A model generated the notes under the pieces. The model had not been told where the DNA came from and ran no database searches. It saw only the letters and a program-made list of their open reading frames with translations. Below are positions 30,686-36,959 of a stretch of 64,000 nt of DNA, piece by piece. The DNA comes from Candidatus Poribacteria bacterium (GTDB lineage: Bacteria; Poribacteria; WGA-4E; WGA-3G): NCBI GenBank assembly GCA_003635195.1, contig PYIY01000078.1:1-64000 (forward strand), read 5' to 3'. How positions within the stretch are numbered: the stretch's first letter is position 1; every line of letters starts with the position of its first letter. A program made the position numbers and the translations under genes.

Positions 30686-32077
30686 ATGCGGCACAACCCC
30701 AACGAAATCTGGTCAGAAATACTGCAGAACCTCAACGACACAGCACAGCAGGACGTTTATCTTCATCAAGCAGTTCCGCTTTCACTCACAGCAGACGCAT
30801 TGAAGATAGCTGTGCCTTCCGCGTATACACGCGCGCGAATTGAAGAGCGTTTCCGAACTGACATCCAGCGAGTATTAGCAACACTAATTGGTGCACAATG
30901 CGTACTTACCCTCACTATAGACGAATCTGTGGCTCACGGCGGCGAGGATTCTAATTTAATGGAAGCGGAAGATACTTCTGATCAATCCCTTGATCAAAGT
31001 GAAGTCTCTATTAGTAACCCCTCCATCTCTCTACCACAGAATCAGACTGGACTGAACCCAAAATACCGGTTTGATACATTTGTTGTTGATACCCCTAATC
31101 GGATCTGTCACGCAACGGCTTTAGCTGTTTCAGAAAATCCAGGGCGCGACTATAATCCTCTTTTCATTTATGGCGGGGTCGGATTGGGTAAAACCCACCT
31201 CTTGCACGCAATCGGTAATAGACTTTCAGTAAACCAACCTGATAAAAAAGTTCTGTACGTTACATCAGAAACTTTCATGAATGAATATGTCGAGTCTATT
31301 GTCAATCGCGGATCAGCGCAAGGATTCCGCACAAAATATCGAACAGCGGACATGCTTTTGATTGATGACATACAATTTTTGGAGCGTAAGGAGGGGACAC
31401 AAGAAGAATTCTTTAACACCTTTAATGACCTCCACATGAACTCAAACCAGATAGTCATGACCAGTGATCGGACACCGAATAACTTGGAAAACCTTGAACT
31501 CCGTCTGCGATCCCGATTTCAATCCGGTATGGTAGCTGAGATTGGCATGCCACAGTACGAGATGCGTATCGCTATCCTCCGACAAAAGTGTCAAGACCAA
31601 GGATTTGAAAACCTACCTGATGATGTCCTCAGTTACATCGCCGAGGTCGTCGAAACGAATATTCGAGAACTAGAAGGCACGCTTGTGCGGCTGGTTACAC
31701 AAGCCACGATACTCAAGGAAAACTTGAGTTTGGATTTTGCCCGACAGGTGCTCAACGATGTAGGCACTCCCTCACCAATGCGAGATCGTAAGACTGCCAC
31801 ATCAAAAGGGATACAAATGGTCGTCGCTGACTACTTTGGTATTGAGGTGGCAGACCTCGTCTCTCAGAAACGGACGAAGGAGTTAGTCCAACCGCGTCAA
31901 ATCGCTATGTACATGTGCAGGGAATTAACACAAATGTCATATTCAAACATTGCCCAAGCGTTTAATAAGGGAAATCATACAACTGTCATTCACGCTTGCA
32001 AACAGATAGAAGATACAATCGAAAAGAGTGATGAGGAACGGAAAACAATTATGTACCTGATCGAGCAATTCCGATAG
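30686..32077 (+). CDS. dnaA: Chromosomal replication initiator protein DnaA
   Basis: NPLFIYGGVGLGKTHLLHAIGN, LLIDDIQFLERKEGTQEEFF, C-term GNHTTVIHACKQIE. Confidence 0.97.
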   Translation: MRHNPNEIWSEILQNLNDTAQQDVYLHQAVPLSLTADALKIAVPSAYTRARIEERFRTDIQRVLATLIGAQCVLTLTIDESVAHGGEDSNLMEAEDTSDQSLDQSEVSISNPSISLPQNQTGLNPKYRFDTFVVDTPNRICHATALAVSENPGRDYNPLFIYGGVGLGKTHLLHAIGNRLSVNQPDKKVLYVTSETFMNEYVESIVNRGSAQGFRTKYRTADMLLIDDIQFLERKEGTQEEFFNTFNDLHMNSNQIVMTSDRTPNNLENLELRLRSRFQSGMVAEIGMPQYEMRIAILRQKCQDQGFENLPDDVLSYIAEVVETNIRELEGTLVRLVTQATILKENLSLDFARQVLNDVGTPSPMRDRKTATSKGIQMVVADYFGIEVADLVSQKRTKELVQPRQIAMYMCRELTQMSYSNIAQAFNKGNHTTVIHACKQIEDTIEKSDEERKTIMYLIEQFR

Positions 32078-32142
32078 CCAAATTCAGTGTTTTACCTCAG
32101 CGTTTTTTAAGGTTTTTTTAAACGATATACCGCATCATACCC

Positions 32143-32400
32143 TGTTGATAACCTGTGCATAACTATGTTAAAACAATGTTGATAACTTGTGCATAACTTG
32201 TGCATAACTCGGTTGTTATCCAGCTTTGTTGATAACCTGTTGATAACTCGCTGACTTATGCACAAGTTATCAACAGGGTACTTGTCAATGATCATCAGTG
32301 TTCAGGTGAGTTATCCACTTATCAACAGCCCCTACTACTACTACTAATCTCTATATAAATTTATATAGTACTTAGTAGTAATAGTAGAGGTTGTGGATAA
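32143..32400. other. Putative chromosomal replication origin (oriC)
   Basis: Five TTATNCACA boxes (32154, 32188, 32199, 32256, 32392) plus six TTATCAACA variants (32143, 32177, 32227, 32238, 32267, 32319) and AT-rich palindrome, directly downstream of dnaA. Confidence 0.92.
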
Positions 32401-32460
32401 GTGCTAAAAGTTATTAAATTTTGCACCCAAGTCAATTAAAATATTCACACCTAAGATAAG

Positions 32461-33768
32461 ATGTTATTAAATCATATCGTCCTACGAAATTTTCGGAATT
32501 ATATCAATTGCGAAGTCTACTTCCCTAAGCCTGTTAACTTAATCGTCGGTGGGAATGCACAGGGAAAAACCAGTTTGCTTGAAGCAATCTATTTTCTTTG
32601 CACTGCGGAATCTCATCGTGCGACTCATGATGCCGAATTGATTCGGCATCATGAGTCAGGATTCTACCTAAAAGGGACACTGAGGAACGGTAGTGATGAC
32701 GTAACATCTCTTGAGGCGATAAAACAGGCACGCGGACAGTTTAGATTGAAGAAAAATGGTATTCTCCAAGCAAAACGCTCCGAATGGATCGGTCAATTTA
32801 ACGTTGTATTTTTTTCCCCAGAGTCGCTAACATTAGTGAAGGGAGGCCCCTCGGAAAGGCGACGGTTCTTAGATCTCTTAATCTCACAGATTGATAACGA
32901 ATACCTAAAAAATTTGCAAAAGTACAACCTCGTTCTCAAACAACGAAATGAATTGCTCAAGCAGATTCGTGCGATGTTCGCAAACGTAACGCAATTGGAT
33001 GCTTGGGATAAATTGCTGCTCATGCATGGTACTGCAATTATCATAAAGCGGTTAGAAATCTTTCATCAATTAAAAGTGCACGCGATCCAAAATCATCAAG
33101 AACTCACCGGCGGTTTAGAAAATCTCGTGCTGACGTATCGTTCGGCATCAGTGTCGAACGATACGTCAATTGACGATATTACATGCAGTACTTCAGAAAC
33201 CACTTTCGGCAGCTCATTAGCAGAGCCTTCAAATATATTTCACAAGAGTACCCGTGAAACTGAAGACAAGGTAGCCAAACATTTTGGCATATCCTTAAAC
33301 GCCTCCCGCGAGGCAGATTTACAGAGAGGTACAACCTTAGTCGGCCCGCACCGAGACGATTTCCTCATTGAATTGGAGAATGGACCTGAGGAACGTATCA
33401 CTTACCACGATAGTGAAAATGATCCACAAGACTCAGATCCCGAAACAGGAACATTTCGAGAAGTCGCGCGATCTTATGGGTCACAAGGGCAGCAGCGGAC
33501 TATCGCATTAGCCCTCAAGTTAGCAGAATTAGAGTTGATTCGACACCTAACAGGCAGAGACCCAATAGTTTTATTGGATGATGTCACCTCAGAGTTGGAT
33601 TACAAGCGGATAGGGTATCTATTAGGGGTTCTCCAAAATTTAAGTGCCCAAACCTTTATTACGACTACACATGCCGAGCCTCTTGTCCATCATCTTGATC
33701 AACCGAACATCTTAACGGTAGAGAATGCCCAGATAAATTACGCCACCGAAACTAACGAACCCTCTTAA
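32461..33768 (+). CDS. recF: DNA replication/repair protein RecF
   Basis: LRNFRNYINCEVYFPKPVNLIVGGNAQGKTSLLEAIYFL, LVGPHRDD, GSQGQQRTIALALKLAEL, LLDDVTSELD. Confidence 0.95.
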   Translation: MLLNHIVLRNFRNYINCEVYFPKPVNLIVGGNAQGKTSLLEAIYFLCTAESHRATHDAELIRHHESGFYLKGTLRNGSDDVTSLEAIKQARGQFRLKKNGILQAKRSEWIGQFNVVFFSPESLTLVKGGPSERRRFLDLLISQIDNEYLKNLQKYNLVLKQRNELLKQIRAMFANVTQLDAWDKLLLMHGTAIIIKRLEIFHQLKVHAIQNHQELTGGLENLVLTYRSASVSNDTSIDDITCSTSETTFGSSLAEPSNIFHKSTRETEDKVAKHFGISLNASREADLQRGTTLVGPHRDDFLIELENGPEERITYHDSENDPQDSDPETGTFREVARSYGSQGQQRTIALALKLAELELIRHLTGRDPIVLLDDVTSELDYKRIGYLLGVLQNLSAQTFITTTHAEPLVHHLDQPNILTVENAQINYATETNEPS

Positions 33769-33781
33769 GACACCGACAAGT

Positions 33782-34291
33782 TTGAACATGCGCAAGACCC
33801 AAAACCTACGCGACCTCCTCACTGAACTCACCCGCTCCCACGACTTCGAGCCCAAGATGCTTGAGCAGAAAGTCTTTGCCCTTTGGCGCGAACATCTCGG
33901 AACGCCACTTGGTACCAAAACAGTTCCAGTCTCGCTATCCGATAGCGTTTTGAAAGTTTACACGGAATACCCTCCGTTTAAAAAAGAACTGTTACTCCTC
34001 AAAGAAAGGATAATAGAAGATTTGAATGTGGAATTAGGAGAAATTGTCCTAACGGATCTTCGGATAGAGATACGCCAAGTGCATAAAGCATCATCCTATC
34101 ACGCGAACAATGCCCCTACTGACCCTGAGATGTCAAAGACCACAACGTCAACACCCGAGTCAAGCAATCTTCGGACACCAACCCCCAAAGAATTAGAGCA
34201 AATTGAGCAGGCAATAACTGATGTGACGGATACTGATTTAAAAACTTCTTTGCGGCAACTATTCATGACACAGAGCAAAGAAAAGCCTTGA
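33782..34291 (+). CDS. DUF721 family protein (DciA-like helicase operator)
   Basis: LFALWREHLGTPLGTKTVPVSLSDSVLKVYTEYPPFKKELLLLKERIIEDLN and recF-gyrB location. Confidence 0.75.
   Translation: MNMRKTQNLRDLLTELTRSHDFEPKMLEQKVFALWREHLGTPLGTKTVPVSLSDSVLKVYTEYPPFKKELLLLKERIIEDLNVELGEIVLTDLRIEIRQVHKASSYHANNAPTDPEMSKTTTSTPESSNLRTPTPKELEQIEQAITDVTDTDLKTSLRQLFMTQSKEKP

Positions 34292-34364: not shown

Positions 34365-36959
<2,595 letters not shown>

Follow-up and report, generated by a model that had tools for sequence, protein, structure and literature searches.

Can an origin of replication carry a DnaA-dependent unwinding system for each of its two strands? The question is raised by the gap between dnaA and recF in a Candidatus Poribacteria genome (assembly GCA_003635195.1), within the first 64,000 nucleotides of contig PYIY01000078.1, the stretch analysed here and hereafter called the window. 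An ATP-dependent DnaA oligomer extends from a DnaA box onto the DnaA-trios of one strand (PMC6669920, PMC10721633), and the loading of the second helicase, on the strand without a DnaA filament, has been stated to be unexplained (PMC10201434, PMC10721633). An origin that by nature has a basal unwinding system (BUS) per strand is a direct test object for two-helicase loading. We consider it fairly probable that the element in this gap is the Poribacteria chromosomal origin and has a two-sided BUS, in which DnaA filaments on opposite strands hold both strands for helicase loading. That a two-sided BUS anatomy has been under selection is supported by the anatomy itself, its uniqueness, the genus-wide conservation of trios and box on the right, and its recurrence in other phyla.

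Anatomy of the dnaA–recF locus

The gene order across the locus is dnaA, the two-sided element, recF, dciA and gyrB, with all genes on the plus strand. dnaA (30689–32077) encodes a protein of 462 aa with the Pfam domains DnaA_N, Bac_DnaA and Bac_DnaA_C, whose closest solved relative is Bacillus subtilis DnaA (8btg, E 1.4e-102), the likeness being full-length. The adjoining recF (32461–33768; 435 aa, SMC_N/AAA_23) is followed by dciA (33788–34291; PF05258, E 4.6e-12), which has gyrB (34443–36959) on its 3' side. The dciA product is likely the helicase loader/operator; a whole-genome search of the assembly found this gene as the sole DciA and no member of the DnaD/DnaB_2 family.

The gap between dnaA and recF holds 12 good DnaA boxes. 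Nine boxes form an array at 32143–32275, with seven on the minus strand (TGTTGATAA/TGTGCATAA) and then two on the plus strand (TTATGCACA, TTATCAACA), an arrangement conserved genus-wide in the gaps of relatives. Beyond the array comes the left arm of the element. Gauged against a BUS consisting of a pair of boxes with at most two mismatches, a GC-containing spacer of 0–16 bp and at least three NAN triplets on the correct strand, the left arm has a plus-strand double box at 32311–32327 (TTATCCACT at 32311–32319 and the abutting TTATCAACA at 32319–32327, one mismatch each), a GC-rich spacer, GCCC(C), at 32328–32331, and five in-phase TAG trios on the minus strand, read from 32346 to 32332. On the other side of an 18-bp perfect palindrome at 32351–32368 (CTATATAAATTTATATAG), which is AT-only except at its ends and is presumed to be the unwinding core, the right arm has five plus-strand trios (TAG TAG TAA TAG TAG, 32373–32387), a purine-rich spacer of 4 bp (AGGT, 32388–32391) and a minus-strand box at 32392–32400 (TGTGGATAA, or TTATCCACA when read on the minus strand). 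This box, judged by the same limit of two mismatches, is perfect and single, the adjacent 32401–32409 (GTGCTAAAA) being no box; its trios lie within 16 bp of it on the correct strand. The published search rule for BUS trios is N-A-N, and it allows a single box (PMC8287927). The arms thus differ in that the left has two abutting boxes, with the nine-box array further left, and the right only one. Both trio arrays point inwards, and since their strand and direction match the published DnaA-trio rule, by which 3'-GAT-5' leads away from the box (PMC8287927), the minus strand is the target of the left arm and the plus strand that of the right. A cluster of boxes and an AT-rich core beside dnaA, one criterion for a bacterial oriC, are both present, and the oriC-like character of the element is supported by its dnaA–recF position, its unique trio motif and the 12 good boxes; neither the core CTATATAAATTTATATAG nor the left trio motif CCCTACTACTA is found a second time in the ~6.45-Mb assembly.

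The initial annotation had described positions 32319–32400 as an 82-bp palindrome, and on recomputation this description was exact, with 34 of 41 arm positions matching about a centre at 32359/32360; the 18-bp perfect palindrome was likewise found at that centre, and the order of box, spacer and trios on the expected strands was borne out, with five in-phase trios to a side. No other centre in the window has 29/41, the best dyads in thirty order-1 Markov sequences of 64 kb reach 22–24, and 34/41 was reached by none of 3000 local simulations with the composition of the gap. The element might nevertheless be a product of chance, or a recent functionless inverted duplication, as the near-perfect 82-bp dyad is confined to the source species and its close relatives. 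We regard this as highly improbable, given a random expectation far below 34/41 and, as set out in the next section, a signature of selection and retention of the box across congeners whose DnaA proteins are 76–94% identical. Those same data bear on the two-sided BUS.

The right arm across the genus

dnaA was located in 87 of 100 related genomes and the downstream gaps were extracted, which allowed the right arm to be anchored in 35 congeneric loci. Across these loci the left arm is an almost invariant, conventional BUS, its double box being near-invariant in the genus alignment. The right box has no mismatch in 24 of the 35 and one in a further seven (31/35 at 0–1 mismatch), whereas it is lost, at a threshold of one mismatch, from four (five by a stricter motif match), in which the trios are retained. 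Its variant also tracks that of the left BUS box (CA with CA in 4/4, CC with CC in 24/26; Fisher P = 0.0005, kinship uncorrected). In genus g2, a GC right box goes with a GC left BUS box, and in genera g2 and g4, where the commonest box is TTATGCACA, the right box is TGTGCATAA.

The right trio block varies in a particular manner, as in the in-phase examples AAT TAG TAC AAT TAA TAG and AAT TAG TAC TAA TAT TAG. When changes are placed by parsimony on the dnaA tree, the middle base takes 3 of 36 in right triplets 3–5 (binomial P = 0.0005) and 6 of 40 in all six right triplets (P = 0.008), P values that need a factor of about 3 because the triplet phase was picked on the conserved TTAGTA. Among the variable right triplets of the 35 loci, A stands at the middle position in 96% and T at position 1 in 74%, while the G at position 3 that would mirror the left arm is found in 19%. 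Keeping the middle A and not the position-3 G fits a reading of single-stranded DNA by DnaA, and not the pairing of a stem; the pattern is the degenerate NAN signature that DnaA-trios are known to need, and hairpin conservation would not be expected to produce it. A DnaA-trio array is recognizable from selection on the middle base alone. In shuffle tests at single loci the right array attains P<0.05 for no more than half of the congeners, such tests being weak because the DNA is AT-rich.

These data also bear on whether the inverted repeat is itself the conserved feature, as a cruciform, a single-strand hairpin or a site for a dimeric protein at the origin. As single-stranded DNA the 82-mer folds at -16.5 kcal/mol (z -5.4), several relatives give z from -3.7 to -6.8, and genera g1, g2 and, in part, g3 have dyad cores of different sequence, all of which speak for such a role. 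One relative, however, folds like its shuffles (z -0.8), just 14 of 34 congeners have a dyad score that reaches significance, and the variable trios keep their mirror partner at the middle base but not at position 3. With position-3 partners lost in 81%, a conserved hairpin was rejected as the main explanation, although a hairpin may well form, and a role for the repeat as such is quite improbable. Relatives keep the box-plus-trio logic and not the 82-bp palindrome, and a perfect core dyad is restricted to the source species and its close relatives, so the mirror image described by the initial annotation stands as an arrangement of boxes and trios and falls as a conserved palindrome.

Two further observations concern dnaA in this genus. 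In species with TTATCAACA/TTATGCACA boxes, including the source of the window (dnaA at 30689–32077, boxes at 32143–32400), NHTTV replaces the usual DHTTV in the recognition motif of DnaA domain IV; the DHTTV members all use TTATCCACA only, and a few NHTTV species still have mostly TTATCCACA. This association may reflect a natural change of DnaA-box specificity. In addition, one assembly of genus g3 contains a second dnaA contig of the genus-g1 type (L010; G056:C68), which is probably bin contamination.

Poribacteria beyond the genus

The left trios are conserved in Poribacteria families f1–f7. The right arm is more restricted. It decays in genus g3, and no clear right arm was found in families f2 and f4, which makes two-sidedness dispensable within the phylum; families f7 (L066) and f5 (L070) have mirrored trios without the second box. 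Retention of both arms by relatives, a prediction of the two-sided origin, thus held among congeners, with their right boxes and middle A, but not among most order-level relatives, which are without a right arm. The arrangement of neighbouring genes differs too: in the source family recF directly follows dnaA (gap at 32078–32460 in the window), whereas in order-level relatives (L057, L059) a dnaN-like gene lies between dnaA and recF, and these relatives are without the right arm.

A GC-skew switch at dnaA had also been put forward as a check by the initial annotation; from 20 samples of 20 kb per genome, the skew was higher to the right of dnaA in 3/3 closed relatives, with no significant switch in any (P = 0.73, 0.62 and 0.31). 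Among closed relatives, the nearest that pattern matching brought up was OX639973.1.

Known origins and a proposed mechanism

Each arm of the Poribacteria element has the order and polarity of the BUS in B. subtilis oriC, i.e. DnaA-boxes 6/7, a GC spacer and DnaA-trios (PMC6669920, PMC8287927, PMC10721633). B. subtilis, however, has one BUS and opens one strand, whereas the Poribacteria element has a second, inverted BUS across the AT core, and its single right-hand box contrasts with the paired boxes of B. subtilis. In Escherichia coli oriC there are likewise two DnaA subcomplexes, left-half and right-half, proposed for the loading of two DnaB helicases, but the DUE has both of them to one side (PMC6127211), whereas in the Poribacteria element boxes and trios flank the core and address opposite strands. 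In Thermotoga maritima, where oriC combines an eTrio with a DnaA-trio and relies on ssDUE recruitment, DnaA cannot capture single-stranded DNA without the TAG repeats of the DUE; these trios are on one strand and one side only (PMC10316083), and those of the Poribacteria element on both. In the open-access literature searched, no origin was found to have been described with trios to either side. Because the published BUS survey retained only one candidate for each genome (PMC8287927), a second BUS could not have been reported by it, and surveys limited to the best BUS of a genome may have missed the second.

With a two-sided BUS, initiation would most simply be read as follows. The left BUS, with its double box, GC spacer and five trios, would nucleate an ATP-DnaA filament, which would take hold of the minus strand and extend to the right, while the right BUS, with its single box, purine spacer and five trios, would nucleate a second filament, probably a weaker one, which would take hold of the plus strand and extend to the left. 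Each on its own strand, the filaments would converge on the AT core and hold both strands apart. Each strand would then offer a free filament end for helicase loading, probably with DciA here, and the helicases, moving 5' to 3', would be directed outwards; the consistently stronger left arm would fit sequential opening and loading. We infer from the sequence that DnaA binds at both arms; the two filaments, one per strand, would further have to coexist, and the second would be expected to contribute, on the second strand, to opening or to the loading of a helicase. There is a functional parallel in viral double-hexamer origins such as that of SV40, in which a dyad seats one initiator assembly per fork, as the Poribacteria element would. 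The SV40-type initiators are unrelated and are themselves helicases on duplex DNA, and the comparison is only with how the element works.

Recurrence in other phyla

The genomes of 85,488 species were scanned for three left trios, a gap, two right trios and a right box; the left box, which the pattern did not include, served as an internal control. The scan returned 35 stretches. In 20 of these a left box, either perfect or with one mismatch, lies no more than 16 nt from the array, whereas 0.5 would be expected from shuffles. The 20 two-box stretches come from Ktedonobacteria (9/9), Poribacteria (4/5), Alphaproteobacteria (2/2), Dependentiae, Atribacteria, Margulisiibacteriota and two phage-like contigs. 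The two-sided plan is rare overall, the strict mirrored pattern occurring once outside Poribacteria in a set of 393 genomes (about 300 of them diverse). Several of the sites in other phyla plausibly occupy origin locations. The Atribacteria and Margulisiibacteriota sites (L099, L100) adjoin dnaA/dnaN, and the Alphaproteobacteria sites (L072, L074) are beside maf. The sites in Ktedonobacteria (L075:2982–3058, L079, L082, L088, L089, L091, L096, L101 and L105) mark a candidate oriC for that bacterial class; in the three with known neighbours (L075, L079 and L101) the adjoining gene is dnaG, not dnaA, and in L101 rpoD comes next.

The varied gene neighbourhoods help in weighing the possibility that the left BUS works alone and that a regulatory DnaA complex assembles on the right trios and box, for example a competing or sequestering filament on the opposite strand, or a control on the recF promoter 60 bp downstream. 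In favour of this, the weaker arm is in every case the right one, with a single box and degenerate trios, it is located just upstream of recF, and its box can be lost. Yet trios matter only in unwound DNA and are better conserved here than the box, and the plan recurs in other phyla beside different genes (dnaG, maf, dnaN, nusA); we consider a purely regulatory right arm rather unlikely. Mirrored trios without a second box, which are also found in Treponema, Aeriscardovia, Thermus and others, bear on another proposal, namely that the right array is captured by DnaA looped over from the left box array, by ssDUE recruitment of the kind known from E. coli and T. maritima, with the right box no more than an aid. 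In favour of such capture are these lone arrays, in the three genera just named, in families f5 and f7 and in four or five congeners, as well as the two orientations of the boxes in the left array. An arrangement of this kind would not, however, lead one to expect a right box retained in all but four of the 35 congeners and tracking the local box variant, and we hold it to be unlikely.

For the two-sided BUS, the recurrence raises the tentative prospect of an origin class, found in Poribacteria, Ktedonobacteria and scattered phyla, in which two inverted BUSs would open the duplex from either side and give one filament per strand, and both helicases would be loaded by the same filament-end mechanism, with no separate rule for the opposite strand. 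A link between two-sidedness and the possession of DciA without DnaD was considered and rejected: in all six Ktedonobacteria tested (6/6) a DnaD-like protein is present and DciA gave no match, so that two-sidedness does not go with a single type of loader, and the notion that it replaces DnaD is not supported.

An enrichment of the pattern in phages was also rejected, the two viral matches comparing with 0 and 1 for scrambled left arms. Of the two phage-like contigs, L102 has a holin. The other (L090), binned as Fermentibacteria, encodes RecT and a protein with DnaA domain IV (Bac_DnaA_C), and the gene for the latter is located just upstream of an almost perfect mirrored site of box, trios, core, trios and box (L090:3858–4527), which suggests a phage origin that might use host DnaA.
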